Shown here piece after piece: positions 10,471 through 35,065 of a DNA stretch of 39,093 nucleotides (within the stretch, counting starts at the first letter, position 1; each line of letters starts with the position of its first letter). The DNA lies in contig JAUXMV010000105.1 in NCBI GenBank assembly GCA_030683155.1, positions 1 through 39,093 on the forward strand. The letters run 5' to 3'. This DNA is from Bacteroidales bacterium. Lineage in GTDB: Bacteria > Bacteroidota > Bacteroidia > Bacteroidales > F082. A program made the translations under genes and the position numbers. The notes under the pieces are model-generated. The model was not told where the DNA came from. It worked only from the letters and a program-made list of their open reading frames with translations, and did not search any database.

Positions 10471-10693
10471 ATTTATTCAATAGAAAATTAAAGACCTTAA
10501 TAATGTAAAACCCAAACTAATTCTACCGCTCAAATGTCGTTACTTTCCTGTATACTCGCAAGAACTTTCGTTTTTATCAGTCGTTGAGGTAAAAGCCTGA
10601 CCAGCTCATTTTGTTATTTTTTAATAGGGCAAGGTTACCAACTTATTCTGCTGAAAGGTACTCCGATTGGTCGGCTTTTCCACAATAGGCTTA

Positions 10694-10735
10694 AAAAGCA
10701 GAAAAGAGGACGAAATCGTCCTCTTTTCTGCTTTT
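10694..10735 (-). terminator. Terminator of tRNA-Asn (19-bp perfect stem)
   Basis: AAAAGCAGAAAAGAGGACG (10694-10712) pairs perfectly with 10717-10735 across a 4-base loop. It begins 2 bp past the tRNA 3' end on the minus strand. A/T runs on both sides mean it could also stop transcription from the other direction. Confidence 0.85.
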
Positions 10736-10736
10736 G

Positions 10737-10810
10737 CTCCCCCTGCTGGACTTGAACCAGCGACCCTCTGATTAACAGTCAGATGCTCTAACCAACTGAG
10801 CTAAGGAGGA
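10737..10810 (-). tRNA. tRNA-Asn (GTT anticodon)
   Basis: The minus-strand sequence folds into a complete cloverleaf. The acceptor stem is TCCTCCT/AGGGGGA (with one G-T pair). The D arm is GCTC-AGTTGGTTAGA-GC, the anticodon arm CTGACTGTTAATCAG contains GTT, and the T arm is CTGGTTCAAGTCCAG. The discriminator base is G, as expected for tRNA-Asn. The CCA end is not encoded. It has its own promoter and terminator. Confidence 0.95.
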
Positions 10811-10831
10811 GTGTTTCTCTGTTTGAGGGTG

Positions 10832-10862
10832 CAAAATTACACGTTTTTTCAAAGTGGCCAAA
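10832..10862 (-). promoter_or_regulatory. Promoter of tRNA-Asn
   Basis: On the minus strand TTTG (10859-10862), 19 bp and TAATTTTG (10832-10839) match the Bacteroidota promoter pattern exactly. The -7 element lies 21 bp upstream of the tRNA 5' end. Confidence 0.75.
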
Positions 10863-10908
10863 TTTTTTTTCAAAAAACCTGCATCATATTTGCACAAACC
10901 CTCAGGCA

Positions 10909-10937
10909 CAAAAAAAAAGCAGGGTTAACCCCTGCTT
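10909..10937 (-). terminator. Terminator of the outer-membrane-type gene
   Basis: AAGCAGGG (10917-10924) pairs with CCCTGCTT (10930-10937). On the minus strand the stem is followed by eight or more T residues. It lies 22 bp downstream of the stop codon at 10960. Confidence 0.88.
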
Positions 10938-10959
10938 AAAAGATGTATGAAATATGATT

Positions 10960-11514
10960 CTACAATTTAAATGCTACACCTAAATTGAAATATGCAATCC
11001 CGGTGCCAAGCTCGACCATACCAGCAAGCTTATCGGTGAAATAATATCTTCCGCCTACATAACCTGAAAAAAGCACTCCACTGGATGATCCGCTATAATT
11101 TCCACCCAATGAGTTTCCAATTTCTTTACTGGTTACAACATTATAGCCAAGTAAAACACCTGCATAAGTATCAAGTTTATCCACCAAAGGATAGTGAAAT
11201 GATCCACGAGCTCCAATGATAAAGTTGGAAATCTTCCATCCATAACCAAGATATTCCCACTTGGCTGAAGTGTAACCTAAATATCCTCCTACGCCTATTG
11301 AACCAACATCAAGGACGCCATCCTTAATGCCTTGCTCATAAGAAATGGAGATTGGAGGTGTTTTGCTTGTGTAATAGGAGCCTGAGTAAAATCCAGATAA
11401 AAGTCCAATACCCAGATTAACTACTTTGTCACCTTCTTTAAAAAGGTTTTCCTGCGCTTTAAGCGTTGTTGTCATTGTGAGCAATGCCACAAAAATTGTA
11501 ATGATTTTTCTCAT
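10960..11514 (-). CDS. Outer-membrane beta-barrel-type protein
   Basis: A 184-residue protein with a signal peptide (MRKIITIFVALLTMTTTLKAQ). The mature part is rich in glycine and aromatic residues and in alternating strands such as GVGGYLGYTSAKWEYLGY and GLLLGYNVV. It ends in an aliphatic/aromatic strand (FNLGVAFKL), the normal C-terminus of small outer-membrane barrels. The size fits an 8-stranded barrel. No specific ligand can be assigned. It is a single gene with its own promoter-like element at 11568-11598 and a strong terminator. Confidence 0.8.
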   Translation of the reverse strand: MRKIITIFVALLTMTTTLKAQENLFKEGDKVVNLGIGLLSGFYSGSYYTSKTPPISISYEQGIKDGVLDVGSIGVGGYLGYTSAKWEYLGYGWKISNFIIGARGSFHYPLVDKLDTYAGVLLGYNVVTSKEIGNSLGGNYSGSSSGVLFSGYVGGRYYFTDKLAGMVELGTGIAYFNLGVAFKL

Positions 11515-11567
11515 AAGAAAGTTGGTTTATTAAAGGTTGTAATTAAAATATGATTAACAATTCAGGG

Positions 11568-11598
11568 CAAAAATAAATATTTAAATGAATTAAACAAT
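11568..11598 (-). promoter_or_regulatory. Promoter of the outer-membrane-type gene
   Basis: On the minus strand ATTG (11595-11598), 19 bp and TATTTTTG (11568-11575). The -7 element is a full match to TAnnTTTG and the -33 element matches three of four bases. It lies 53 bp upstream of the ATG at 11514. Confidence 0.5.
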
Positions 11599-11613
11599 CC
11601 ACGAAAAGGGGGA

Positions 11614-11644
11614 TTTCATATTTCTGACTATTGATTTATTTTTG
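11614..11644 (+). promoter_or_regulatory. Promoter of the second kinase/regulator operon
   Basis: TTTC (11614-11617), 19 bp and TATTTTTG (11637-11644). The -7 element is a full consensus match and the -33 element matches three of four bases. It lies 42 bp upstream of the ATG at 11687 and is divergent from the promoter at 11568-11598. Confidence 0.5.
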
Positions 11645-11686
11645 AAGTGTTATTAACAACTGCAAAATTATTAAAACCCAACACTT

Positions 11687-13639
11687 ATGAAAAGTAAGTT
11701 TCTGATGCTTCTGTCAGCTATTTTAGTCGTCTCCATAGCTTTGGCGTCAGAGACTGAGATCCAAAGAAAATCAGACTCTTGTATGCTTTTTTTACGCAAC
11801 TCACAAAATGATAGGGCGGCAATATTAGTAAATGATATAAAACGGCTGATTGTTATAAGAAACGAAAGTTTTGAAACGGGAGATGCACTGCGCATTATCG
11901 CCAGTTTTTTTCTCGAAAAACCTGATTATGATTCCGCGGTTTACTATTTTGACCTTTCAAATGCTATTGCATCCCGACTGCTTCCACCTGAAAACGACCT
12001 CCTTAAAGCACGGATTTTGTTTTCATATTCGCTTATGTATTATCGCAACGGTGATTTTGAAAAAGCAATTATGATGCTTCTTGAGGCAGAATATATTTTT
12101 ACTGAACTGAACGACAAAGACTGGATTGCTGAAACATGCAACAGACTGGGAGGCATTTATCTGGTGTTTGGAAATGCTGAAAAGGCTAAATACTATAATC
12201 TGAAAGCATACAATTTTGTGCAGGAATCCCACAATGTTTCATTGAAGAGCAAGGTGCTGAATGCCTATGGAAATTATTTGCTGGAGTCAGGAAAAGTGGA
12301 TAGTGCTATGATGCAATACGACCTTGCTATTTCAATTGCAATGCAAAGCGGTAACAAAAAAATTGTTTCTGATGCCTTATACAACAAGGCTTTTGCATTT
12401 TCAAAACAGGAAGAATATGAAAAGGCACTTCATTATTACAATGAGGCGCTTGAAGTAGCGCGATCAGGCAATCTCGACTACGATATTGTTGATGCATTGT
12501 ATAAATATGGACTCACTTTGTACTATATGGAACGTTTTGATCCGGCCCGCGACACCTTGCAAAAGGCCCTGAAAGCAGCCAAAGAAATGAAGGCAAGTAC
12601 ACTTCAGCGAAATATTTATGATGCGTTGAACTTTCTTGAATACGAGGCAGGAAACTTTAGGCAGGCATACGAATACCTCAGCAGTTATGTGGATTTGGCA
12701 CATGAAATCTTTACAGCGGATGAACAGAAACACATCAATTTTTTGGAGGCAAAATTTGAAAGCCAGAAAAAAGAAAGTCAGCTAATCATTCAAAAGCAAA
12801 AAATTCACCAACGCAACCTGGTAATTTTTATCAGCCTGACATTGCTGATTTCGCTTTCGATAATCATCTTGCTTATGGTAGGTCGTCACCGTAAAAAGAG
12901 GACCATTGCCATGCAGCAAATTGCACTGGCCGAGGAGCAACTCTCAAGGCTAAAACAAGAACAGGCTTTGCTTGCGGCACAAGCATCCATTAAAGGTGAA
13001 GAAAATGAGCGCAGTCGCATTGCCCGCGACCTTCATGATGGTCTGGGCGGAATGCTATCAGGCGTCAAGCTTACTTTAAATCACGCCATTGGCCGGCAGG
13101 TTTTTGAGGAGCAACAGGCCAATCAGTTTTACCATGTGCTCAACATGATCGACAGCAGTGTGACGGAACTTCGCAGAATTGCACACAATATGATGCCCGA
13201 AATACTTATCCGTTGTGGTCTTCGCAGTGCTTTGGAACATTTCTGTCAGGCTGTTTCCCCTCATGAAAAACCGAAAATCAGTTTTTCTTTCTTTGGAGAT
13301 TTCTTCAGGCTTGAGAAGAGTTTTGAGCTGATGATCTATCGTATTGTGCAGGAAATGACCACCAATGCTATCAGGCATGCAGAAGCTTCGGAGATAAAAG
13401 TTGAGCTGATACAAAACGAAGAATATTTAAGTATAAGGGTTATTGACAACGGAATAGGCTTTGATCTAGAAAGTATAAAAGATAAAAAAGGAAATGGTTT
13501 AAGAAATCTTCAATCCAGAGTTGCAAGTTTTGGTGGAATGTTCGACCTTAGCGCTGAAATTGGCGGAGGCACAGAAGTGATGGCTTCGTTCGATAATATC
13601 TACCAATTTAAACAAAATGATCAGGATATTGATTGTTGA
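11687..13639 (+). CDS. TPR-repeat sensor histidine kinase (HisKA_3 type)
   Basis: A 650-residue protein built like the kinase at 2323-4314. It has a signal peptide (cleavage after ALA), about 340 residues of TPR repeats (for example ALHYYNEALEVA and AKYYNLKAYNF), and a transmembrane helix near 380-403 (LVIFISLTLLISLSIIILLMV). A coiled coil follows. The HisKA_3 domain carries H450 in ARDLHDGLGG, and the HATPase has IVQEMTTNAIRHA, DNGIGFD and GNGLRNL. It overlaps the response regulator gene by 23 bp, so the two are translated together and are a cognate pair. The genes downstream encode T9SS-exported proteins, but nothing in the sequence proves control of them. Confidence 0.93.
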   Translation: MKSKFLMLLSAILVVSIALASETEIQRKSDSCMLFLRNSQNDRAAILVNDIKRLIVIRNESFETGDALRIIASFFLEKPDYDSAVYYFDLSNAIASRLLPPENDLLKARILFSYSLMYYRNGDFEKAIMMLLEAEYIFTELNDKDWIAETCNRLGGIYLVFGNAEKAKYYNLKAYNFVQESHNVSLKSKVLNAYGNYLLESGKVDSAMMQYDLAISIAMQSGNKKIVSDALYNKAFAFSKQEEYEKALHYYNEALEVARSGNLDYDIVDALYKYGLTLYYMERFDPARDTLQKALKAAKEMKASTLQRNIYDALNFLEYEAGNFRQAYEYLSSYVDLAHEIFTADEQKHINFLEAKFESQKKESQLIIQKQKIHQRNLVIFISLTLLISLSIIILLMVGRHRKKRTIAMQQIALAEEQLSRLKQEQALLAAQASIKGEENERSRIARDLHDGLGGMLSGVKLTLNHAIGRQVFEEQQANQFYHVLNMIDSSVTELRRIAHNMMPEILIRCGLRSALEHFCQAVSPHEKPKISFSFFGDFFRLEKSFELMIYRIVQEMTTNAIRHAEASEIKVELIQNEEYLSIRVIDNGIGFDLESIKDKKGNGLRNLQSRVASFGGMFDLSAEIGGGTEVMASFDNIYQFKQNDQDIDC

Positions 13640-24232: not shown

Positions 24233-25066
24233 TCAGGAAATAAGCTTGATGCCGTCTTCAAGAATGGCGATAAGGCGTTTTTTGTATAAGGCCCCAATAG
24301 ATTTTTTGAAGTTTTTCTTACTCATTTTGAAGATGCTGTAAATCTCAGTGGCATTGCTTTTATCGGTCACAGGTAGAAAACCATCACGTTTCTTTAGTAT
24401 TTCGATGATGCTTTGAGAGAATTCATCGATTTTTTCGTAGCCTGCCTTTTGAAGTGTGAGATCAATTTTTCCGTCTTCACGAATGTTATTGATGTAACCT
24501 TTGATGTGTTGTCCCGGGCGGAGGCTTTGAAACACTTCATTTTTATATAAGAGGCCTTCATGCTTGTGATCTATGATGGCTTTAAATCCGATTTCGGTAA
24601 TAGCCCATATAATGAGATCAACTTCCTGGCCAACTTTATAGTCATGTTCTGTTAAATCCAGAAATTGTTCAATTTTTGCGGAGGCAGCAATGCGGTTGGA
24701 TTCTTCGTCGAGATAAACAAAAACCAGATAGTGTTTTCCCACTTCCATGCGCATTTTCTGTTCACGGTAGGGTACAAGAAGATCTTTGTCAAGTCCCATA
24801 TCAAGAAAGGCACCAACATTATTTACATCGACAACACGCAGCATTCCAAACTGATTGACAGTGATGGCTGGTTTTGTTGTGGTAGCAATAATGCGATCGT
24901 TTGAGTCGAAATAGAGAAAAACTTCAAGTTTGTCGCCAGGCTGACAGTTTTTGGGCAACCATTTGGAGGGCAACAGAATTTCGCCCAGATTTTCTCCGTC
25001 GAGATAGACGCCAAAATCGACTATTTTAACTACTTCAAGGGTGTTGAGTTGTCCTGCCAGTGCCAT
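24233..25066 (-). CDS. cvfB: CvfB-family S1 RNA-binding protein
   Basis: The protein has 277 residues from the ATG at 25066. An in-frame ATG at 25108 would add 14 residues not expected in the family, whose members begin just before the first S1-like domain. It has tandem S1-type OB folds (NTLEVVKIVDFGVYLDG; LRVVDVNNVGAFLDMGLDKDLLVP; GFKAIIDHKHEGLLY; GYINNIREDGKIDLTLQ). A C-terminal winged helix follows (FKMSKKNFKKSIGALYKKRLI). CvfB/YitL proteins bind RNA and affect gene expression in Firmicutes; the role in Bacteroidota is not established. The gene converges with the dehydrogenase gene. Confidence 0.9.
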   Translation of the reverse strand: MALAGQLNTLEVVKIVDFGVYLDGENLGEILLPSKWLPKNCQPGDKLEVFLYFDSNDRIIATTTKPAITVNQFGMLRVVDVNNVGAFLDMGLDKDLLVPYREQKMRMEVGKHYLVFVYLDEESNRIAASAKIEQFLDLTEHDYKVGQEVDLIIWAITEIGFKAIIDHKHEGLLYKNEVFQSLRPGQHIKGYINNIREDGKIDLTLQKAGYEKIDEFSQSIIEILKKRDGFLPVTDKSNATEIYSIFKMSKKNFKKSIGALYKKRLIAILEDGIKLIS

Positions 25067-25160
25067 GCTATTGAATTTTAAATTTTTTGGTAAAGGTAAT
25101 AAAAGCAAAATTGGGCTTCACTTTTACTTCACATTAAAGATATTGCTCCAACGATGGCGA

Positions 25161-25550
25161 CTATTCCACCTTTGGCCAGTCGCCGGATAAGGCATTTTTG
25201 CGGGGGTCGCAGGTTTCGGTTTCAGGCGTTAGCGTAAGCTTCGTATCAGAAACAAGAAACTGGTATGTTGATTCAGAATTGCAGTCGGGATCGTCGAAGA
25301 TTTTGATTTTATTATCAGAAACGAGACTATACTTTACAGATGAACTTGTGTGGCCGGGAATTGTCTCAACAGGTTTCCATAAAAGAATTCCATCTTTGGT
25401 AAAGGAAAGCTGAACCTGGTAGGCTTGGCCGCCAACTAAATATGGCCTTTGGTAAGTGCCTGTTATATCGTTCTTTTCTTCATCTTTTTTACAACTGTAG
25501 AATGAAGTGAACGCTGCCAAAAAGAATAAAAGGATTGTAATCTTTTTCAT
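25161..25550 (-). CDS. Small lipoprotein, unknown function
   Basis: A 129-residue protein with a lipoprotein signal peptide ending at C20 (SFYSC). The following residues KKDEE fit the Bacteroidota lipoprotein export signal (X-K-(D/E)2-3), so it is probably displayed on the cell surface. The mature part looks like a small lipocalin-type barrel (DITGTYQRP..., YQVQLSFTKDGILLW, STYQFLVSDTKLTLT). It begins 23 bp after the ABC ATPase gene and may be the last gene of that operon. No precise family was recognised. Confidence 0.75.
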   Translation of the reverse strand: MKKITILLFFLAAFTSFYSCKKDEEKNDITGTYQRPYLVGGQAYQVQLSFTKDGILLWKPVETIPGHTSSSVKYSLVSDNKIKIFDDPDCNSESTYQFLVSDTKLTLTPETETCDPRKNALSGDWPKVE

Positions 25551-25573
25551 TTAATACAAGGGTTTTTGAACAT

Positions 25574-26386
25574 TTAGATATACTGCTGCTGCAACATGGC
25601 GGCAACTGACTCATCAAATAATTCTCTTTTCTGCACTCTGTTAAAAGTTTCGATAAGATCTGGAACACGGACGCGTTTCTTCATTTCGTCACGGTAATCT
25701 TCCACAATCTGACCGCGGTGCATCATGACGATTCGATCGGGCAGGTCGACTGCTTGCTGCATTGAGTGTGTAACCATTAAGGCTGTAAGGTTTTCCTTTT
25801 CGATGATATGCTTGGTAAGTTCGGCTACTTTGGCAGCGCTTTTCGGGTCGAGGGCAGCAGTGTGTTCGTCAAGTAAAAGGAGTTTAGGTTTCAGCCATGT
25901 AGCCATAAGCAAGGTGAGCGCCTGTCGCTGTCCGCCCGAGAGTGTCCCGATTGGATTATCGAGCCTGTCTTCGAGACCCATTTTAAGCATACGTACTTTT
26001 TCGGCAATTTCTTCTTTTACCGCTGCGTTGACAGCCAGACGCAAAGGCCTGCTCTGACCGCGTCTCATGGCCATTATGATGTTTTCGGCAATTGTCATTT
26101 CGGCAGCTGAACCCGCAAAAGGGTTCTGAAACACCCGGCCAATAAGGCTTGCCCTCTTATATTCCGGCCATGCGCTTATTTCCGTTTCATTTAAAAGAAT
26201 AGAGCCCTGATCGGGTATAAAAGTGCCGGCAATAGCATTGAGGAGTGTGCTTTTCCCAGACCCATTTGTGCCTATGATGGCAGTAAAACAACCTTCCTTT
26301 ATTGTTAAGCTTACATTGTTCAAAGCCCCGACTTCATTCACGGTGTTGGGAAAGAAAGTCTTACTGATAGCATTGATTTTAAGCAT
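25574..26386 (-). CDS. ABC transporter ATP-binding protein
   Basis: A 270-residue ABC ATPase with all motifs intact: Walker A GTNGSGKST (39-47), Q-loop Q87, signature LSGGQRQ (149-155), Walker B LLLLDE (169-174) and H-loop H207. It overlaps the permease gene by 8 bp. With the BPD_transp_2-type permease and the ABC_sub_bind protein upstream, it completes a set like the TrpXYZ or YtlC-type importers that bind small organic ligands. The substrate cannot be read from the sequence. Confidence 0.95.
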   Translation of the reverse strand: MLKINAISKTFFPNTVNEVGALNNVSLTIKEGCFTAIIGTNGSGKSTLLNAIAGTFIPDQGSILLNETEISAWPEYKRASLIGRVFQNPFAGSAAEMTIAENIIMAMRRGQSRPLRLAVNAAVKEEIAEKVRMLKMGLEDRLDNPIGTLSGGQRQALTLLMATWLKPKLLLLDEHTAALDPKSAAKVAELTKHIIEKENLTALMVTHSMQQAVDLPDRIVMMHRGQIVEDYRDEMKKRVRVPDLIETFNRVQKRELFDESVAAMLQQQYI

Positions 26387-27320
26387 GACGCGATCCTCCG
26401 AAAAATTTACTGCTTAATGATTTGAACATATAGGGCGCAACAAGGGCAAAGAAAACAAATACAGCCGTAACGAGTTTCAGGTCGTTTGGATTTAAGCCCC
26501 AGCGTAGCGCAATGGCAATGAGCAGCCGAAATAAAATTGTTCCCAGAATTGCACCTGTGATGGTGATTCCCAGACTGGATTTTCCAACCAGTGCCTCACC
26601 AATAATGATGCTTGCCAAACCCCAAACCATCATGCCGATGCCCATCTGTACATCTGCGAAACCTTGATACTGAGCTAGTAGCGCGCCCGACAATGCAACC
26701 AATCCATTAGAAAGCGCAAGGCTGAAGACAACCATTGTATTGTTGTTTACTCCCTGTGCGCGAACCATTTGTGGATTGTTGCCCGTGGCTCTAAGGACGG
26801 TACCAAAGTGTGTTTTCAGGAAGCGGTTGAGTAAAATGCCTGTGATAATGCAAATGATGGCAATGGTAATAAAAACAGCCATATCTGTGAGAGGTACAGG
26901 CCAGCCAAAGACATTCATTTTACTGGTGCCACCGGTGAACTGCTGCAATAGCTTTTCCGTACCACCGGAGATGGTCTCGGTGTCAAGCAAAGGAATATTG
27001 CTTCGGCCCATGATGCGCAGGTTGACAGAATAAAGAGCCGTCATAACAAGAATGCCGGCCAGAATTTCCTGAATTTTAAATCGGGTATGCAGAATTCCAG
27101 TTACCATTCCTGCAACTGCTCCAGCGGAGAAAGCCATTAAGGTGGCAAGCCATGGCGACCATCCTGCCATGATGAGCACTGCTGAAAGGGAAGCGCCGAG
27201 GGTGATTGATCCGTCGACAGTGATATCAGTGAATTTGATCATGCGAAAGCTGATCAACATACCAAGTGAAAGCAGCGACAGGATAAGACCCATCGTAAAA
27301 GCGCCAATGATTAAATTCAT
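26379..27320 (-). CDS. ABC transporter permease (BPD_transp_2 type)
   Basis: The protein has 313 residues from the ATG at 27320. This start gives an ATGA overlap with the upstream STAS gene stop and places the first helix (NLIIGAFTMGLILSLLSLGML) at the N-terminus. An earlier ATG at 27359 lies in polar sequence. About eight to nine transmembrane helices and the motif ITVDGSITLGASLSA place it in the branched-chain amino acid/TrpY-like permease family. A single permease gene implies a homodimeric channel. It is downstream of the STAS-domain protein and overlaps the ATPase gene. Confidence 0.93.
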   Translation of the reverse strand: MNLIIGAFTMGLILSLLSLGMLISFRMIKFTDITVDGSITLGASLSAVLIMAGWSPWLATLMAFSAGAVAGMVTGILHTRFKIQEILAGILVMTALYSVNLRIMGRSNIPLLDTETISGGTEKLLQQFTGGTSKMNVFGWPVPLTDMAVFITIAIICIITGILLNRFLKTHFGTVLRATGNNPQMVRAQGVNNNTMVVFSLALSNGLVALSGALLAQYQGFADVQMGIGMMVWGLASIIIGEALVGKSSLGITITGAILGTILFRLLIAIALRWGLNPNDLKLVTAVFVFFALVAPYMFKSLSSKFFGGSRHA

Positions 27321-28543
27321 AAAATACCCTCCATGTTTTGAATGGGAGCACACCAGCAAGCTCCACGAATGAGTGAACTTTGTCCAAGACCTATTGCAGG
27401 CCTGTTGTCGTCAGCCAAATGCATTAAAGCCTGTGGCGGTGGTCCGGAAAGTAACTTTTGAACGTTTTGAATAAGGTCAATTTTTCCGTTTTGCAATGGT
27501 TGATAAGGAAAAACAGCTGCATGAAAATGTCCGGACAATTCGGGGTTGGACGGCAGTGATGCAAGAAGTGGCATTTTCTCAAAAGCCCCATTTCTGGTCA
27601 CGACACCAAAAACCATTGCCTGATAACCGGAAAACACCCTTTCGCCGCAGAAAGAAAGCCATTCGCGGATTTCGGGAAATGGAATAATACCATTATTTTT
27701 TAAAAGACCTGGCGACTGTATGAGGTTGGCGCCAACGAGTCCATCCACCTCGGCAAGAACCACAAATGCAGCGGCATTGCACTTTGTGATTGAAAGTGCT
27801 TTCTCCGAAATATCAGACAATCCGAAAAATGCATTTTTTTCGTCAGGCGAAAAACGGAACAAATGCGACATTTCACCATTGCAATATAACGCCTGTATTG
27901 CTTGCATCTGAGGGATAAAGTCTTTTTCAGCCAAAAGATAGTCGGGGCGCGATTTAGCTTCAGGTGCCTGAAAAATGACATGGCCTCCAACGGCAACAAA
28001 CTCACCAAAATGGGATCGGGCTTCCTCAGGAGAATCTGCTGCACTGCCTATACCTAGCGCAAAAACTGAAGCAGGAAAATGAAGCTTTGAAATATTTTCT
28101 GCTTTTACTGTATTCCATGGCTGCCAGTCAGCAACAACCGATAGCGTGAGGCTGCCTGATGGATTAAGCACAAAAGACCCTTCATCAACCTGAGCAGATG
28201 AAAATGAATGATCAGATTTCAATGCCAACAGTTCTTTGGGAAAATCCTTGGAAATCCAATGTTTGAAGCCCGTCATTTCGATTGTTTTAACCACAAAATC
28301 CTGAGCATGTACGATCAGAAAGCTTCCTTTCACTGAGTGAAGCTCTTTGTTGATTCGCAACAATGACCTTATGCCCGCTGAACTTAGAAAATTCAATTCA
28401 TCGGCATCAATAATCAGATTGTGGTGGCCATTGCGGATAAGGTCAAGACAAGTTTCAGCAAAATAATCGGCCCAGGAAGCATCAAGCTTACCAATGGCTT
28501 TGATTACAAAATACTTTCCAAGCTGTTCTTGTATGAGTTGCAT
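27317..28543 (-). CDS. STAS-domain protein with unknown C-terminal domain
   Basis: A 408-residue soluble protein. Residues 1-100 are a STAS (anti-sigma-factor antagonist) domain with the characteristic FLSSAGIRSLL loop; S55 is the likely phosphorylation site by alignment with SpoIIAA/RsbV. The remaining 300 residues were not recognised. They contain VVADWQPWN, GIGSAADSPEEA, FRFSPDEKNAFFG and a closing GLGQSSLIRGACWCAPI. The gene lies 2 bp after the substrate-binding-protein gene and overlaps the permease by 4 bp, so it is embedded in the transporter operon. An RsbW-like kinase heads the same operon and would be its natural partner. Confidence 0.85.
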   Translation of the reverse strand: MQLIQEQLGKYFVIKAIGKLDASWADYFAETCLDLIRNGHHNLIIDADELNFLSSAGIRSLLRINKELHSVKGSFLIVHAQDFVVKTIEMTGFKHWISKDFPKELLALKSDHSFSSAQVDEGSFVLNPSGSLTLSVVADWQPWNTVKAENISKLHFPASVFALGIGSAADSPEEARSHFGEFVAVGGHVIFQAPEAKSRPDYLLAEKDFIPQMQAIQALYCNGEMSHLFRFSPDEKNAFFGLSDISEKALSITKCNAAAFVVLAEVDGLVGANLIQSPGLLKNNGIIPFPEIREWLSFCGERVFSGYQAMVFGVVTRNGAFEKMPLLASLPSNPELSGHFHAAVFPYQPLQNGKIDLIQNVQKLLSGPPPQALMHLADDNRPAIGLGQSSLIRGACWCAPIQNMEGIL

Positions 28544-28545
28544 AA

Positions 28546-31449
28546 TCAGTTTTTTTCGTTGGTAAAAACAATTGCTTTCTGTAAAAATCCTTCACTCAGC
28601 CGGAGCTTGAAAAGTTTAGCCAATTCAGGATTATACAAAAGCTTTTCGGATTGGGTATTGCTGAAAGCAATGTCAGCAGGATTCTCGCCTCGTAAAATGC
28701 GCACTGCTTTTTCAGCAGCTTCCAGACCAGCATCATAATAATCGCGTGCAAGGCATAAAACGCCCCCATCATGCATTTGATCACTGTCGAAGACAAAGAC
28801 AGGGATTTTATTTTCAGCAGCTTTACGCGCAATAAGTGCAAAGCCCGGGCGTGTCATATTGTCGACAATCTGGCAGACCACCTGCACATCTTTTCTGCAC
28901 AGTTCGGAGGCAGCTTGTGTAAGGTCGGCACTCGAAGTAACGGGGATGGTTATAAGGCCTATCCCCTCTTTTTCGAGTGCCTCGGCAAACCAATCTTTGT
29001 ATAACACGCTGTTGATTTCGGCAGGTGTAAACAAGGTGCCAACATTTTTAACTCCGGGCAAAGTTTCCTTAATGAGTTTCGCCATTCCGGAGAACGGAGA
29101 ACGGGTAGTGATACCTGTGACATTGGGCAGATGATCAGTTTCGCTTTTACCCGCTCCGGCTTTCACTGCATCACCAACGCCGGTGAAGACAATTTTTGTT
29201 TCATTGCCAGCCTGCCTTAAAGCAGCTTGCAGCGTGGGCGTTGAAATAACCATCAGTAAATCAGGTCGGTCAGATTTTATGGTCGTCATTATACTGGATA
29301 GCGTTGACATATCGCCTTGAGCATTAAAGACGCGCAATTCATAATCTTGTCCTTCGATATAGCCTGCTTTCCGAATGCCATCTATCAGCCCTTCATGGCA
29401 ACGCTCGGCAAATTCGGTATCGCTGTAATGCACGATTCTCAGTTTGAATTTTTTTTGGCTGACAGCAACTGGCTTCCCTTTTGGTTCTATTTTCAGCTGA
29501 ACTTCTGTTTCAGATAACGGCAGAAGAGATGCCGGAACACCAGCAATAACTTTGGCAGCCATTTTCCCGGATTGCTTACCCCACTCAAAAAAACTATCGC
29601 CATAAGCGCCGGTAGCACCCTCAGCAACAAGCTGCGGTTCGGTAGCAAATATGGGTATTCCACTGCCATCAGCAACACGGCGGATAGAAGCAAAGCCTGT
29701 GGTAACAAGGTTGTCGGCAGAAACAATGATTGCCCCTGCCCCTCTTTGAATCAGTGCCTGTGTTGCCATGCTGAGTTCAGTGACGTTGGAAGCTGTGACT
29801 TCGACCACCTTCATTTTTTTGTTTTTTCCTGCAACACGCAATTTCTCGACAGATAAAACAGAGTTCATCTGCGATGCGTCATATACAATGCCTACAGCCT
29901 TGAGCTTCGGATTGTATGCCATAGCCATTCCAAGCAGCGCCTCCACCGGAGGGTTATCATGAACCCCACAAACATTTTCAGGTCGTCCTTCAGGGAACAT
30001 ATTTAGTTTGTTGGGGTCGCTGGTAACGCATAAAACAACTGGTATTTCGGTTACTCTTTTCACAACCGCCATCATCACAGGTGTCGTAATAGTTACAATC
30101 ACATCTGGTTTTTCGCGTACAACAGCATCAATGATGGTCATCAACTGGCTTATTTCACCTTGTGCGCTATAGGTTTTGAAGCTGTAATCAATGTCGGGCT
30201 GCAGACCACTCCACTTCAGACCCTCTTCAACTCCCTGAATGGCCTCCTCAAGTGATTTGTTTTCAACCAGTGTAATTACAGCAAGCTTTGCAGGTCTTCC
30301 GTTTTTGAGAGCCACATTACGGAACAGATTTGCTGAATTTATTGTTTCTATATCCAGCTCGCTACCCTGATTTTTCATTTTGGCAAAATCAAGCTCAATA
30401 CGTTCAACCTCTTTTTCATTGTCAGACAAAGTAATGAGCGCCTGCAATTCAGGGCTTATGCTCCATGCATTGCCAAGAGAGGCAAGCACCTCAGTGTTGA
30501 TACGAAGCTCTTCAGGCACAACGTTTTCAATGCGAAATTCAGAAGGGCTTTTACCTTCCAGAATAGCTATTGCGACATCGGCGGTGTATTGTCCGACAGT
30601 GAAATAGTTTGCTCCAAGTCCAAAAAGTGCTCCTGTTTTCACGTCGATCGGGTCGTTTGTAAAGACAGGAATTCCCGCCTGCTTTGCCAGATTAACGATC
30701 ATCCCCAAAGAAGCAATTGCAACGGTATCCCCGCCAATCCAAATGGCTTCAATGCCTTTTGAGAGCAATGAACGTGCGGCTTCTGACACCTCTGAAGTGT
30801 TTGTAGCAATGGCTTCAACCAGTTCTATTCCCAGTTCTTTGCAAATCATTCTGGCTTCATACAAACAAGCTTCAGAGCACTGTTCGCCGGGATTCCAAAC
30901 AACGCCAACCCGTTTGATGTGAGGATTAAGTTTTTTAAGCGTCTGGAAAGCTGTTTTCACAGGTTGAAAAGTTCCGATGCCGGCCATATAGGGAGGATGC
31001 TGATCAGGCGCGGGACCGGTGATGCCGACGCCTGTGCCGTAAGGATAGGTGACGGCACCAAAAACATGCAGTTTTCCAACATTTTGGTTTGCTTTTGAAA
31101 ACACCTGTAGTGCAACCGTGCTTGAAGTTATCACAATTTTGTAGGGGCCGTTTGCAATTTCGCGTGCGATTGTATTGGCAGTGCTGAAATCACCCTGAGG
31201 GTTAAATTGACGAATGTTAGCATTTCCGGGAGCCACATATCCTTTTTCCATCAAGCGGTCAATGATACCGGCAACATGGGTGTCAAGCAATGGCGTTGAC
31301 GAAATTTGCATGATAGCTATAGGTGGGTATTCGCGGAGTTTGTCAGGCTTGCTGCTGCTGCGCTGTTCCATGTCAGAAAAAAGTAAAACAGCAGAAGCAC
31401 CGATAATTAACGTAACCGCGAGCCATAAATCCTTGAAGAGGTTTTTCAT
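28546..31449 (-). CDS. Triple-module ABC_sub_bind substrate-binding protein
   Basis: A 967-residue protein, about three times the length of a usual ABC_sub_bind (TrpX-like) protein. The N-terminus is a signal anchor (residues 9-26, WLAVTLIIGASAVLLF) with no lipobox. Three tandem modules follow, beginning near residue 42 (IAIMQISSTPLLD), 385 (LAVITLVENKSLEEA) and 690 (LRIVHYSDTEFAERC). Each holds an Ix-x-FNAQGD-like segment (FNPQGDFST, YSAQGEISQ, FNAQGDMST) and an IT(S/T)(P/S)T-type ligand loop. The three modules may bind three ligands or form one large sensor attached to the membrane. It lies between an RsbW-like kinase and a STAS-domain protein, and upstream of one permease and one ATPase. 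Confidence 0.88.
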   Translation of the reverse strand: MKNLFKDLWLAVTLIIGASAVLLFSDMEQRSSSKPDKLREYPPIAIMQISSTPLLDTHVAGIIDRLMEKGYVAPGNANIRQFNPQGDFSTANTIAREIANGPYKIVITSSTVALQVFSKANQNVGKLHVFGAVTYPYGTGVGITGPAPDQHPPYMAGIGTFQPVKTAFQTLKKLNPHIKRVGVVWNPGEQCSEACLYEARMICKELGIELVEAIATNTSEVSEAARSLLSKGIEAIWIGGDTVAIASLGMIVNLAKQAGIPVFTNDPIDVKTGALFGLGANYFTVGQYTADVAIAILEGKSPSEFRIENVVPEELRINTEVLASLGNAWSISPELQALITLSDNEKEVERIELDFAKMKNQGSELDIETINSANLFRNVALKNGRPAKLAVITLVENKSLEEAIQGVEEGLKWSGLQPDIDYSFKTYSAQGEISQLMTIIDAVVREKPDVIVTITTPVMMAVVKRVTEIPVVLCVTSDPNKLNMFPEGRPENVCGVHDNPPVEALLGMAMAYNPKLKAVGIVYDASQMNSVLSVEKLRVAGKNKKMKVVEVTASNVTELSMATQALIQRGAGAIIVSADNLVTTGFASIRRVADGSGIPIFATEPQLVAEGATGAYGDSFFEWGKQSGKMAAKVIAGVPASLLPLSETEVQLKIEPKGKPVAVSQKKFKLRIVHYSDTEFAERCHEGLIDGIRKAGYIEGQDYELRVFNAQGDMSTLSSIMTTIKSDRPDLLMVISTPTLQAALRQAGNETKIVFTGVGDAVKAGAGKSETDHLPNVTGITTRSPFSGMAKLIKETLPGVKNVGTLFTPAEINSVLYKDWFAEALEKEGIGLITIPVTSSADLTQAASELCRKDVQVVCQIVDNMTRPGFALIARKAAENKIPVFVFDSDQMHDGGVLCLARDYYDAGLEAAEKAVRILRGENPADIAFSNTQSEKLLYNPELAKLFKLRLSEGFLQKAIVFTNEKN

Positions 31450-31501
31450 AATTCAACTTTCTTTACAACTGTTCAAACCTGGTCTTTCAATGCATGTTTT
31501 A

Positions 31502-31936
31502 TCAGCTGCCAAAAGTCAGCTTTTTAGTCATCATCAGTATGTTTTTATTGTCAGCACGCTGATAGGTTACCTCATCCATCATTTTCCTGATAAGAAAAAT
31601 TCCAAGTCCGCCGATTGATCTTTCCTCTGCTGAGAGTGTTACGTCAGGATCGGCATTTTGCGTGGGGTCGTAAGCTTTGCCATCGTCGATAATTTTTATC
31701 GACAAAATATTGCCTGTTTTTTCAAAATCAATCCCGATGCTATGCAAGTCCTGATCGGTATAGGCATAGTTAACCACATTTGTAAAAGCTTCTTCGAGCA
31801 CAAGGTTCAAAGACATCGTCAAAGCCAACGGAATATCCCAGATTTCGGCAAGTTCTTCAAGGAAAACACTGATGGTTTCGAGCTCCTCCAATTTATTTTG
31901 AAGCTTCAGGGATTTGATGTTTTCTTCTTTCTCCAT
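31502..31936 (-). CDS. RsbW/SpoIIAB-like anti-sigma-factor kinase
   Basis: A 144-residue ATP-binding protein of the HATPase_c_2 family. It has the N box (LVLEEAFTNVVNYAY), G1 box (IIDDGKAYDP) and G2 box (GGLGIFLIRKMMDEV). This layout is that of RsbW-type serine kinases, which hold a sigma factor or other partner until a STAS-domain antagonist binds. It heads a minus-strand operon with a 52-bp gap to the substrate-binding-protein gene and with a STAS protein third in line. No sigma factor gene is in the window. Confidence 0.88.
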   Translation of the reverse strand: MEKEENIKSLKLQNKLEELETISVFLEELAEIWDIPLALTMSLNLVLEEAFTNVVNYAYTDQDLHSIGIDFEKTGNILSIKIIDDGKAYDPTQNADPDVTLSAEERSIGGLGIFLIRKMMDEVTYQRADNKNILMMTKKLTFGS

Positions 31937-32116: not shown

Positions 32117-35065
32117 TTAGTTTCCTAATAATTTTACTGAAAACATCCATTGCTCAGCAGGACCAAAACTATTCTCTAACTTTCTTGCATAGCCCGCAGA
32201 CCATGTTGTTTTAAGATAGGAAAACAGCACTAGTTCGAGGTCTATCTGTGCGCCGGCATTGAATACATTACGTCGGCTGATATCCTTATCAGGGTTGAGC
32301 ATTATATGCGTTCCAAACAATGATGTTTTTATAAAAGTAGGATAAAGCCAGGTGGTGCCGACATTGCGAAGACGAATAGGTTTGAGATTCAGTTCACCCA
32401 TTGTTTTAATAAAATTGTGGGCACTGAGTTCGTCAATTTCCGCTCCGGGGAAGGCAAGGATTTTTCGGTATTGCGAAGAGGGCTGCCAATCGACATAGTT
32501 ATTTCTGAATCCGCCGAAATAAAAAGTGGAAAATGAAGAACCTCTTTTACCAAACGACTGACCGACGCTGTTGCGAATCCAAAAGCTTGTGTTGCGGATA
32601 CCTGGGACCAACATTCCGATGTGCTGTTCAGAAATAATTGAAGGATAGAGATTTCCATTGGCATAGTAGCTGTAACCTGTGAGGTTCCATGTATAACCCT
32701 TTTCATCTTCTATGCCTCCAAGGGTGCGTCTGAGTTTTGATGTTCCGATATCAGCAGATATGCTTTGGAAATTTTTGATGGGTGAAGCTATGTTTTGAAA
32801 CTGCGGCAACACTTCCAAATCGCCATAGTGTGTCAAGCTAAAACCATAATTCCAACGAAAAGGGGCTTTTATTGCAAAGTTTTTTTTATAATTGAAACCA
32901 ACAGAATATCCCGCCCTGCTTCTTTTGGTCGGGCCAAAAAGGTCATAGAAATCTGTTTTGTTGTAGGTGGCGTGAACGCTCCAATTCCAATAATCCCATT
33001 GAATGTCGCCATGGATTTTTTGCTTATCCGGATTTGTGCTCCATGGAGATGTGCCGAGGAAGACACTTAGATTGGACAACCCAACCCTGTCGCGCCAGTT
33101 TAGTCTGTATCCAACTGCAGCTGTTTCCTTGAAACCGGCAATATCGGGATGAGCGCCTGTGAGTGACATGTTTTTTAATGGAAAATAAGGTGCTTCACCG
33201 GTTTTTAGTGAATCGATATTAACTTTGGAAATTGAAGGAAGAGAATAATCTCCAATATGAGGGCTTGTTTCATAGGCGAGATTTCCAAGATAGTTGATGG
33301 AGTTGGCTTCTGTAATTACGCGCATAGGGATTATGCCGGGCTGCATGCCGTTACGGTTAAATTTAACGACAAAAATAGAATCGTCATTAATCTGCTGTGG
33401 AGAGAAAAGTCCACTTTCGTCATTTGAAAGCAGTTCGAAGGATTTATCTTCAAGGTTAATGCGCCAGATATTCGAAACGCCTGTAAAGTATGATGTGCCA
33501 ATCAGGTAGCGGTCATCATTGGAGAAACGAAACTGTGTAAGTGTATTGTCTTCAGATTTATAAACTGTTTTAAATTCCTTAACGCCAATTTCAAGATCTT
33601 TCAGGTTGAATAATATCACCGACTGTTCACCTCTGATTCCTGTCAGAGTGGCGCTGAGGCTATTTCCTTCGTTTGAAACAGAAAGATCTAAAAGTGAGCG
33701 GCCAAATTCAGTCGTATACATTGGAGCTATCTCAGTATATGGTTCAACAATCTTTACAAGCGTTGCATAGCCATTGTCGTTTCGAACACCCCAAAGACTC
33801 CGGTCAGCAGGATTGAAAACCAGGTTAGATGTTCTTGAAAACTTTATCAGGGTTTCTTTTTTTCCTGAGGCAACATCAATCTTTACCAGACTTCGATATT
33901 TTGAATTTTGCTCAGTGATGAAAATCTGTTTCTTCTGAGGGTCGTAAGCAAGAAAAGTCACTGAATAAAGCATGGGCGAATCGAGCGTGGCAATTTTCTT
34001 TACTTTTCCTGTTTTGATATCAAGTTCGGCAATTTGAGAAATATCACCGGGATGGTTGATTGCAGCGTATATTTTTTGTTCTTCCTTGTCATAGCCTACT
34101 GTTGAGACGCTTCCCAACGGCTTATCCGTGATAGGTTTGAAATCTGTAAGAGTATATTCTTTTACGGCTTCTATATTTTTGGTTTGAAATTCTTTTTCAA
34201 ATTCAATCCATTTGGTCCATTCTTTCTGCACAGAAGTGCCATAAACTTTTTTGAACTGTGCGGCATAAAACGCCTTGCTATCGTCTGTGCGGTTGTAAAG
34301 ATCCTTCACTTTATCATCACCATATTTATGAGCCAGATAGGTGATGAAACGTGTTCCGTACAAATACGCATTGGCACCAACCTGAAAATCGATCGTTGTG
34401 CCTTCGGTTTCCAGACCAACAACTGAATAAAGCGGATAGTTTTCGTTTATGATGCTGCGGAAATACATTTCATCGTATGGGCCTAGCGCCCTGCCCAAAC
34501 CTCCGGATGTCCATGTTTCCAAATAACAGGCAATGCCTTCGTGATACCAGCGTGGGGCATACCAACGCGGTGTTGTGAGGTAGCTCCAAAAGGCGGTGAG
34601 AGGCATTTTTTCGTCTCTACGTACTTTTCCAAACAAAGCTTTTCGCCAAAATTCATCTGTTTTGTTTGGTTTATCAGCAAGGGTGATGTGTGTGAGCTCA
34701 TGCGCAAAAAGCCACTGAAAACGTTCGCTTGAAGGCGTGATGCTAAAGGCAAAGTTGAAGGGAGAAATGCCCAGAATAATCATGTTGTAGGGCATTACGA
34801 TTGCACCTCCATGACCATCATCCTCAAAATCAGTGAGTAACACATAGGTCATTTTATGATCATAGTCCCAATGCTTTTTATGAAAGTCAAGTGCATTGTG
34901 ATAAGTCCGTGCCACATGCGGCATGAGATAGGAGTATCTTTTCCCGAAATAAATCAGTTCCATCTCATCCGTCTTGAAACGGTTTATTTTCTGACTGAAA
35001 AGCATTGTTGCTGTCCCGCTTAAAAGGAACAGCAACAACAAATAGCGATTGAAAATCAGTTTCAT
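32117..35065 (-). CDS. Large secreted HELTH metallopeptidase with propeller and possible barrel
   Basis: A 982-residue protein with a signal peptide (cleavage near LFSQ). Residues 30-190 form a gluzincin-type peptidase domain: HELTH (122-126), and WYHEGIACYLE with E176 as the likely third zinc ligand. Residues 310-600 show repeated TolB/WD-like strands (SVSTVGYDKEEQKIYAAI, FSNDDRYLIGTS), consistent with a beta-propeller. From about 640 to the end the chain is strand-rich and aromatic (FNYKKNFAIKAPFRWNYGFSL...), ending in W-M-F-S-V-K-L-L-G-N, like an outer-membrane barrel. If so, the peptidase would be tethered at the outer membrane. Substrates are unknown. It stands alone between the ABC operon and the paralogue array. 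Confidence 0.8.
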   Translation of the reverse strand: MKLIFNRYLLLLFLLSGTATMLFSQKINRFKTDEMELIYFGKRYSYLMPHVARTYHNALDFHKKHWDYDHKMTYVLLTDFEDDGHGGAIVMPYNMIILGISPFNFAFSITPSSERFQWLFAHELTHITLADKPNKTDEFWRKALFGKVRRDEKMPLTAFWSYLTTPRWYAPRWYHEGIACYLETWTSGGLGRALGPYDEMYFRSIINENYPLYSVVGLETEGTTIDFQVGANAYLYGTRFITYLAHKYGDDKVKDLYNRTDDSKAFYAAQFKKVYGTSVQKEWTKWIEFEKEFQTKNIEAVKEYTLTDFKPITDKPLGSVSTVGYDKEEQKIYAAINHPGDISQIAELDIKTGKVKKIATLDSPMLYSVTFLAYDPQKKQIFITEQNSKYRSLVKIDVASGKKETLIKFSRTSNLVFNPADRSLWGVRNDNGYATLVKIVEPYTEIAPMYTTEFGRSLLDLSVSNEGNSLSATLTGIRGEQSVILFNLKDLEIGVKEFKTVYKSEDNTLTQFRFSNDDRYLIGTSYFTGVSNIWRINLEDKSFELLSNDESGLFSPQQINDDSIFVVKFNRNGMQPGIIPMRVITEANSINYLGNLAYETSPHIGDYSLPSISKVNIDSLKTGEAPYFPLKNMSLTGAHPDIAGFKETAAVGYRLNWRDRVGLSNLSVFLGTSPWSTNPDKQKIHGDIQWDYWNWSVHATYNKTDFYDLFGPTKRSRAGYSVGFNYKKNFAIKAPFRWNYGFSLTHYGDLEVLPQFQNIASPIKNFQSISADIGTSKLRRTLGGIEDEKGYTWNLTGYSYYANGNLYPSIISEQHIGMLVPGIRNTSFWIRNSVGQSFGKRGSSFSTFYFGGFRNNYVDWQPSSQYRKILAFPGAEIDELSAHNFIKTMGELNLKPIRLRNVGTTWLYPTFIKTSLFGTHIMLNPDKDISRRNVFNAGAQIDLELVLFSYLKTTWSAGYARKLENSFGPAEQWMFSVKLLGN

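Follow-up and report, generated by a model that had tools for sequence, protein, structure and literature searches.

The window, by which we mean the whole 39,093-nucleotide stretch of Bacteroidales DNA that was analysed, carries on its minus strand five tightly packed genes encoding an RsbW-like kinase, a substrate-binding protein (SBP), a STAS-domain protein that we refer to as STASx, a permease and an ATPase (Table 1). Along the operon 52 and then 2 bp separate neighbouring genes, after which come overlaps of 4 and 8 bp; these exact values take the ATG at 27320 as the start of the permease. An initial annotation of this DNA had described the five minus-strand genes, their order, gaps and overlaps, all of which are borne out by the ORF coordinates and the Pfam names. 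Two parts of that description need amending: the interval that it gave as five genes does contain them, but a sixth gene ends at 25161, and what it called a STAS-domain protein does have a STAS domain, but residues ~121–408 form another domain, with the predicted fold of acetolactate decarboxylase (ALDC) and PPC proteins. That description also made no mention of the ATPase tail or of a phosphatase encoded in trans, both described below. The sixth gene, lipoprotein-like by eye, has homologues downstream of the operon in four other loci among those searched (L054, L055, L066 and L068) and is a clade-specific neighbour that lies outside the operon core. The SBP (PF04392), permease (PF02653) and ATPase (PF00005) provide the components of an importer of the ABC_sub_bind type. 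Scans for promoters and terminators returned sites no more numerous than in shuffled sequences.

Table 1. Features of the operon and its surroundings, in coordinates of the window
Feature	Position	Strand	Size and basis
RsbW-like serine kinase	31502..31936	(-)	144 aa; HATPase_c_2 5.5e-26
SBP, three fused ABC_sub_bind (TrpX-like) modules	28546..31449	(-)	967 aa; PF04392 2.3e-133, three stretches
STASx (STAS + ALDC-like fusion protein)	27317..28543	(-)	408 aa
STAS domain of STASx, ~residues 1–110	28214..28543	(-)	PF01740 3.2e-14
S55 codon, predicted phospho-acceptor	28379..28381	(-)	Alignment with the SpoIIAA phospho-site motif
C-terminal domain of STASx, residues 121–408, predicted ALDC/PPC fold	27320..28183	(-)	AF2 and Foldseek
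Codons of H339, H341, H375 (HxH...H), possible metal site	27419..27529	(-)	Invariance; metal role inferred from fold
Permease, BPD_transp_2 family	26379..27320	(-)	313 aa; PF02653 5.6e-29
ABC ATPase	25574..26386	(-)	270 aa; PF00005 2.7e-30
ATPase C-terminal tail	25577..25639	(-)	Present in STASx-linked ATPases
Small lipoprotein-like gene (by eye)	25161..25550	(-)	129 aa; 23 bp after the ATPase gene

The STAS domain of STASx

The Pfam match to the STAS domain covers residues 10–99 of STASx. S55 lies in an SSAG loop, as initially annotated, and is the second serine of the motif FLSSAG. Both S54 and S55 are invariant in the two STASx alignments (17 and 35 proteins), and position 55 is Ser in 52/52 readable STASx proteins, a count from which L089 was left out, its N-terminal region failing to align. 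The alignment to SpoIIAA places S55 in the column that holds the first serine of the DSSG motif, the one that we take to be phosphorylated; chain 1tid_B, with D-A-S-G for this motif, carries Ala in that column. The Ser or Thr expected at the phospho-site of a partner-switching STAS domain is present in STASx. The predicted structure of the whole protein has a pLDDT of 89.8 and a pTM of 0.73, and Foldseek matches its STAS domain to SpoIIAA, RsbV and chain 6xbd_K of MlaFEDB (95 residues, E 2e-3), a chain taken to be MlaB.

The C-terminal domain of STASx and its predicted fold

The ~290 residues that follow the STAS domain are free of Pfam matches in the window STASx, and Pfam results for 35 STASx members contain, besides STAS, seven families, each hit by a single member with an E between 0.1 and 0.26, and no match to the ALDC (PF03306) or PCC profiles. 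The AF2 model of this domain (pLDDT 90.9, pTM 0.91) is predicted to adopt an ALDC/PPC fold. Fifteen PDB chains match it in Foldseek at E≤1e-3, of which 14 are ALDC or ALDC-like and one is the zinc protein PTD012, with a best E of 2.3e-6 and TM-scores by target of 0.55–0.64 between the predicted model and the 14 ALDC chains; PPC proteins appear at ranks 16, 34 and 45 with Foldseek probabilities of 0.97–1.00, among unrelated low-probability matches. Superposition on the ALDC/PPC/PTD012 fold is loose (rmsd 5–8 Å, ~10% identity). Profile comparison with hhalign did not reach sequence homology to ALDC (P 0.015, probability 3%) or to PCC (probability 0.7%), neither value being significant; in the best local alignment, GLG..GE..G and GxF are in register between the STASx and ALDC families.

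Three histidines, H339, H341 and H375, are invariant in 17/17 and 35/35 aligned STASx proteins. In the STASx alignment G180 is also invariant, and position 181 is always acidic (Glu in 30/35, Asp in 5/35). The HxH...H arrangement resembles the pattern in ALDC and most PCC sequences, with Cys in third place in some PCC rows, and the third histidine follows HxH after 33 residues in STASx as against 10–13 in ALDC/PCC. On the strength of the modelled fold, H339, H341 and H375 are a possible metal site.

Conservation of the operon core

Full-length STASx (E≤5e-41) was found in 17 of 247 genomes of the order, its own included, and one distant form was present in a further genome of this set (G100). 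A scan of genome contigs gave 36 STASx loci, and the final set comprised 53 unique loci including the window, with the duplicates L033, L034, L035 and L037 removed and L114, L146, L148 and L154 added. The taxa of the STASx records include Bacteroidetes, Desulfobacteraceae, Desulfuromonadales, Kiritimatiellae, Lentisphaerae, Akkermansiaceae, Puniceicoccales, Planctomycetaceae, Acidobacteria and Burkholderiales; all 36 scanned records are MAGs, and single taxon assignments may therefore be wrong. In G224 the operon lies on a contig of 2.66 Mb.

A permease or an SBP–permease fusion lies directly downstream of STASx in 51/53 loci, the two misses being a permease ORF cut at the contig end (L083) and a broken contig (L089). 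The STAS gene is in this way constantly placed beside an ABC permease and ATPase, as would be looked for in an MlaB-like protein. Immediately upstream of STASx a separate SBP is found in 43 of the 53 loci; elsewhere the SBP is fused to the permease (L114, L146, L148, L154), downstream (L076, L085) or one gene away (L073), and the remaining loci start at the contig edge (L067), end downstream (L083) or are broken (L089). The exact order RsbW–SBP–STASx–permease–ATPase occurs in five loci, those of the window, L054, L055, L060 and L062, the last with a STASx 50% identical to that of the window. The expectation that the five genes stay together in relatives holds for SBP, STASx, permease and ATPase, but for RsbW in part only, the exact order being kept in 5/53.

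The importer and its ATPase tail

Single SBP modules score 144–187 bits, those of the window SBP 144–160 bits, against the TrpX profile NF041285, whose cut-off is 390, and the 453 bits of the whole SBP are the sum of three modules. Identification as a tryptophan importer (TrpX) was rejected because the whole-protein score is such a sum, and with each module under the 390-bit cut-off tryptophan cannot be assigned as ligand. The C-terminal module matches 3lkv (7.4e-36), and both 3lkv and 3lft are SBP homologues; judged by length, the number of SBP modules ranges from one to four across loci. A PDB sequence search with the permease gave no match. As a clue to the ligand we looked for riboswitches with Rfam in the window and in L062, L045, L080, L082 and L077, which returned one tRNA only.

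The ATPases linked to STASx extend 13–21 residues beyond unlinked ones in 48/49 cases (the ATPase of L081 is cut by the contig). All of the unlinked ATPases, a control of five proteins from few clades, are without the tail, either wholly or without its last 13 residues; in two of these five (L147 and L150) the ATPase lies ~4 kb from the permease, and the pairing of the two is therefore assumed. The tail may mark the regulated importers. Distances between STASx proteins correlate with those of the ATPase (r=0.93), permease (0.87) and RsbW (0.82), values reached in 0/999 permutations; these correlations show shared descent, not contact.

Partner-switch proteins of the genome

The motifs of the window RsbW are intact (E49-x3-N53 of the N-box, DDG and GGLGI) and the protein aligns to B. 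subtilis RsbW 6m36; ExxxN and GGLG are kept in 15/15 separate RsbW proteins of the examined loci. SpoIIAB presumably uses Arg20 to hold its STAS partner, and no Arg was seen near the equivalent position of the window RsbW. In its own genome this kinase has no second match at E≤1e-10. Two other clear HATPase_c_2 matches (68 and 51 bits) sit in ORFs of ~500 aa, and two further ones are just over the cut-off. The genome has five STAS-domain matches, some with homologues near RsbW/SpoIIE in relatives, and a free STAS protein on contig C35 is 46–53% identical to the free STAS proteins of L036, L037, L045, L062 and L146.

A phosphatase of the PPM (SpoIIE) type is encoded in trans to the operon here and within it in some relatives. 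On another contig of this genome (G000:C27) lies a histidine kinase/REC-SpoIIE pair, of which the kinase is 46% and the REC-SpoIIE protein 74% identical to the pair inside the operon of L045, and the C27 pair is the likely phosphatase for the operon. The sole other SpoIIE match in the genome (C13, 39 bits) adjoins a gene that is hydrogenase-like by eye. For a SigB/F/G-type sigma factor, none of the six matches to TIGR02980 in the genome is over the cut-off (best 113 against 234 bits), which agrees with the initial remark that there is no sigma factor nearby; a sigma-factor target of RsbW was rejected on this ground.

Linkage of partner-switch genes to STASx

RsbW and/or SpoIIE genes are contiguous with STASx on the same strand in 18/53 loci, and within the examined flanking DNA in 24/53 (L089 included); in L040 an ORF on the opposite strand overlaps and interrupts the run of genes, and this locus is therefore scored as non-contiguous. 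When the count is confined to the 38 loci that have >5 kb of DNA upstream of STASx, contiguous partner-switch genes are present in 17. The other 29/53 loci have neither RsbW nor SpoIIE within the examined DNA, some of their contigs being short. Outside the five loci of exact order, RsbW has a STAS gene between it and the importer genes, forms a fusion with SpoIIE, lies farther off, or is absent from the examined DNA. A full set, in the order NMT1-type SBP–SpoIIE–RsbW–STAS–SBP–STASx–permease–ATPase, is found in L080 and L082 and again in L036, where the ATPase is cut by the contig; L062 reads STAS–NMT1–SpoIIE–RsbW–SBP–STASx–permease–ATPase, and L114 reads HK–REC-SpoIIE–STASx–SBP::permease–ATPase. 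A single ORF matches both SpoIIE and RsbW in L070, L072, L073, L077 and L084.

In the proteins scanned, Pfam confirms Cache-HAMP-SpoIIE for L062 and Cache-HAMP-SpoIIE-HATPase for L070, while L045 has a Cache-HAMP histidine kinase and L079 a REC-SpoIIE protein. The initial annotation had proposed a ligand-controlled switch that links transport with STAS phosphorylation. The link between partner switching and the transporter is conserved across relatives, but ligand control finds no such backing, the input domains in the relatives' proteins scanned being Cache/HAMP or REC, not a transporter ligand.

As a control we took 16 permease matches from outside the own genome (E<1e-50, 296 genomes of the phylum), three of which turned out to carry STASx and were counted with the STASx loci instead. 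In the 13 control loci without STASx a domain-level search found a SpoIIE domain, RsbW or STAS gene in 0/13, some of these contigs being short (L155, 5.2 kb). An earlier full-length search of the controls had matched short or cut ORFs in L153, L156, L157 and L158, which were taken for receiver domains.

At the level of genomes, RsbW (E≤1e-10) occurs in 62/247 of the order, in 18/18 with STASx and 44/229 of the others (Fisher 1.9e-12, kinship uncorrected; the 229 may include genomes whose distant STASx form escaped the search). The 18 STASx genomes are spread over 14 families, and in five of these (f33, f21, f13, f9, f55) one sampled member has both STASx and RsbW and another has neither. SpoIIE was discarded as a co-occurrence marker, being too common (179/247 genomes at 1e-10). 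RsbW lies outside the STASx operon, beside or fused to SpoIIE elsewhere, in G241, G203 and G187; two genomes of a single genus differ in this respect, the operon of G103 including RsbW and that of G203 lacking it, with a SpoIIE::RsbW fusion elsewhere in G203. A gene of 982 aa that lies upstream of RsbW is in L057 and L066 directly followed by the SBP gene, so the presence of RsbW in the locus varies.

Proposed mechanism and alternative readings

We suggest, with a confidence that stops just short of even, that the operon encodes a binding-protein-dependent ABC importer regulated by a subunit of its own, STASx, which is switched by phosphorylation and works by analogy as MlaB does on MlaF. Unphosphorylated STASx would use its STAS domain to dock on the importer, the probable site being the ATPase with its additional C-terminal tail, much as MlaB binds MlaF, and would set importer activity. 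Phosphorylation of S55 by RsbW would break or alter this contact, and removal of the phosphate by a signal-driven SpoIIE would restore it. The signal would enter through Cache-HAMP-SpoIIE proteins in some relatives and here probably through the histidine kinase/REC-SpoIIE pair of C27. Free RsbV-like STAS proteins would compete for the same RsbW, so that, in this proposal, what partner switching sets would be import and not a sigma factor. The ALDC-like domain would probably bind a metal and a small acid and report on a cytoplasmic pool. The proposal builds on the conserved gene order, the serine at position 55, the intact kinase motifs of RsbW and its co-occurrence with STASx, the SpoIIE genes in relatives' operons with a 74%-identical homologue on C27, and the ATPase tail that tracks STASx. 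Counting against it are the 29/53 loci with neither RsbW nor SpoIIE in the examined DNA, the difference between G103 and G203, the Arg not seen in the window RsbW, the small control set for the tail and the MlaB T52A result described below.

A wider claim, which we regard as rather doubtful, is that these operons represent an ABC importer class of several phyla gated by Ser phosphorylation of a STAS::ALDC-like protein, with one RsbW serving several STAS clients in a transport-control network that has no sigma factor at its end. In such genomes RsbW would act on the present importer, on a STAS-TCAD9 protein and probably on a second ABC cluster of amino-acid type.

The main rival reverses the flow of information, and we judge it unlikely. 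Here the importer would be a sensor: the ligand-loaded transporter would change STASx, and unphosphorylated STASx would sequester RsbW, so that nutrient state is reported to a cell-wide RsbW with the STAS-TCAD9 protein, the STAS protein of the second ABC cluster and free STAS proteins as clients. A kinase that is its genome's only match to itself at E≤1e-10 would suit such a hub, as would the five STAS-domain matches, some with homologues near RsbW/SpoIIE in relatives, and an SBP of one to four modules would suit sensing. Yet loci with no RsbW in the vicinity still have STASx beside the permease and ATPase, which suits a transporter subunit better than a reporter; nor was any consistently linked output gene seen.

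We think it improbable that STASx is mainly an enzyme, an ALDC-like metalloenzyme acting on the imported compound, with the STAS domain only tuning it or tethering it to RsbW. The predicted fold speaks for this, together with the invariant H339, H341, H375 and G180, the acidic position 181, and a histidine pattern like that of ALDC and most PCC sequences. Against it are the lack of a profile match to ALDC/PCC, both in Pfam over the 35 members and in hhalign, and the 33-residue spacing of the histidines, and a catalytic role would leave the ATPase tail unexplained.

Least probable in our estimation is that RsbW is a mere neighbour acting on other STAS proteins in trans while STASx is a phosphorylation-independent structural subunit: most operons do lack RsbW, and its coming and going in L057 and L066 would fit, but the 18/18 co-occurrence of STASx and RsbW, the invariant S55, the SpoIIE gene directly before STASx in L114 and the recurrence in several lineages of blocks of SpoIIE, RsbW and STAS, whether fused or contiguous, all argue against it.

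Significance and comparison with known systems

Protein switches of this kind normally control stress and spore genes. If the phospho-switched importer is real, partner switching gains a target other than transcription, and many uncultured bacteria may toggle nutrient import by phosphorylating a transporter-associated protein. The analysis also defines an unannotated STAS::ALDC-like protein family. A full-text literature search gave no description of the operon or of this protein among the matches listed, and in the main text of a review (PMC8256260) the terms 'ABC transporter' and 'MlaB' are absent. The parts are known; their combination we found undescribed among the matches listed.

The importer resembles the TrpXYZ type (NF041285, PF04392) in its SBP family, and relatives have the same three-gene importer; the related TrpXYZ-type importers that are without STASx differ in having no ATPase tail. 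The C-terminal domain is like ALDC, PPC (PCC) and PTD012 in its predicted fold and HxH...H pattern, and unlike them in its fusion to a STAS domain, its longer spacing to the third histidine and its want of a family-profile match.

With the RsbV–RsbW–RsbU and SpoIIAA–SpoIIAB–SpoIIE systems the locus and its relatives share a HATPase_c_2 kinase, a STAS domain with Ser in an S-S-x-G loop and a PPM phosphatase with a sensor domain, sometimes all in one operon. Unlike those systems, they are linked to an importer, no SigB/F/G factor is over the cut-off, and the STAS domain is joined to a large second domain. Partner switching of a non-sigma kind has a counterpart in SypA–SypE of Vibrio fischeri, in which, according to the available text of PMC10120452, a STAS protein acts below the level of transcription and is controlled by Ser phosphorylation. 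In contrast to STASx, SypA is a single-domain STAS protein, and that text mentions no ABC transporter for SypA–SypE.

The closest precedent for STASx, an imperfect one and drawn by analogy, is MlaB on MlaF. The two systems have in common a STAS protein with an ABC transporter, and 6xbd_K of MlaFEDB is a Foldseek match of the STASx STAS domain; differences from this importer lie in the permease family, the substrate and the MCE protein of Mla. In E. coli MlaFEDB, as reported in PMC7367683, the STAS protein MlaB sits on the ABC ATPase with its phospho-site Thr at the STAS–ATPase interface, and the phosphomimetic T52E weakened binding in a pull-down. T52A was non-functional and lowered ATPase activity with MlaB still bound, a result that makes the precedent imperfect and that the authors found hard to reconcile with simple phosphoregulation, leaving open whether MlaB is phosphorylated in cells (PMC7367683). 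MlaB is a single STAS domain for which no phosphorylation has been shown, whereas STASx is fused to an ALDC-like domain and has kinase and phosphatase genes linked to it. The same source (PMC7367683) poses for MlaB the question of phospho-regulation of a STAS protein that sits on an ABC transporter, and the presence in several lineages of STAS, kinase, phosphatase and transporter in one operon makes that question directly testable.

Substrate-binding protein variants and neighbouring genes

The substrate-binding protein (SBP) varies in form among relatives carrying the gene for STASx, the STAS and ALDC-like fusion protein of the importer operon, and in four fetched loci (L114, at 10069-12912 in that locus's own coordinates, L146, L148 and L154) it is joined to the permease in a single protein of about 945-1247 aa, with the STASx gene lying 5' of the fusion gene. 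The gene for the SpoIIE phosphatase is repeatedly adjoined by one for an NMT1/THI5-like SBP (L062:2691-3671 and others), which is perhaps a sensor SBP. The gene for the 982 aa protein of the window keeps its position upstream of the SBP gene in L054, L055, L057 and L066, whether or not RsbW lies between them.

Features of the window and of other contigs of the same genome (G000)
Feature	Location	Strand	Match
982 aa protein, upstream of RsbW	window 32117-35065	-	Peptidase_MA_2 (weak)
CvfB-like S1/winged-helix RNA-binding protein	window 24233-25108	-	
tRNA gene	window 10737-10810	-	
Second ABC cluster with partner-switch-like genes	G000:C87, L051:1-6411	+	
STAS domain and TCAD9/APH-like domain fusion	G000:C43, L049:5659-7890	-	PF19974 (9.8e-37)
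Divergent SpoIIE-like protein	G000:C13, L002:1000-2145	-	

Partner-switch-like genes elsewhere in the genome

The second ABC cluster encodes SBP_bac_3 modules and BPD_transp_1 in one fused protein of 875 aa, which is truncated where the contig stops, together with an ATPase of 360 aa, a protein of 251 aa, a STAS protein of 119 aa and a HATPase_c_2 protein of 494 aa. In a close relative (L055:12408-19215, minus strand), homologues of this cluster and of the STAS-TCAD9 protein adjoin the STASx operon in convergent orientation. The gene adjacent to that for the divergent SpoIIE-like protein appears, by eye, hydrogenase-like.

Homologues of the 494 aa protein lie close to RsbW and SpoIIE matches in four other genomes (G203:C55, G103:C1, G134:C54 and G098:C106), and it may therefore be a regular component of RsbW/SpoIIE modules.
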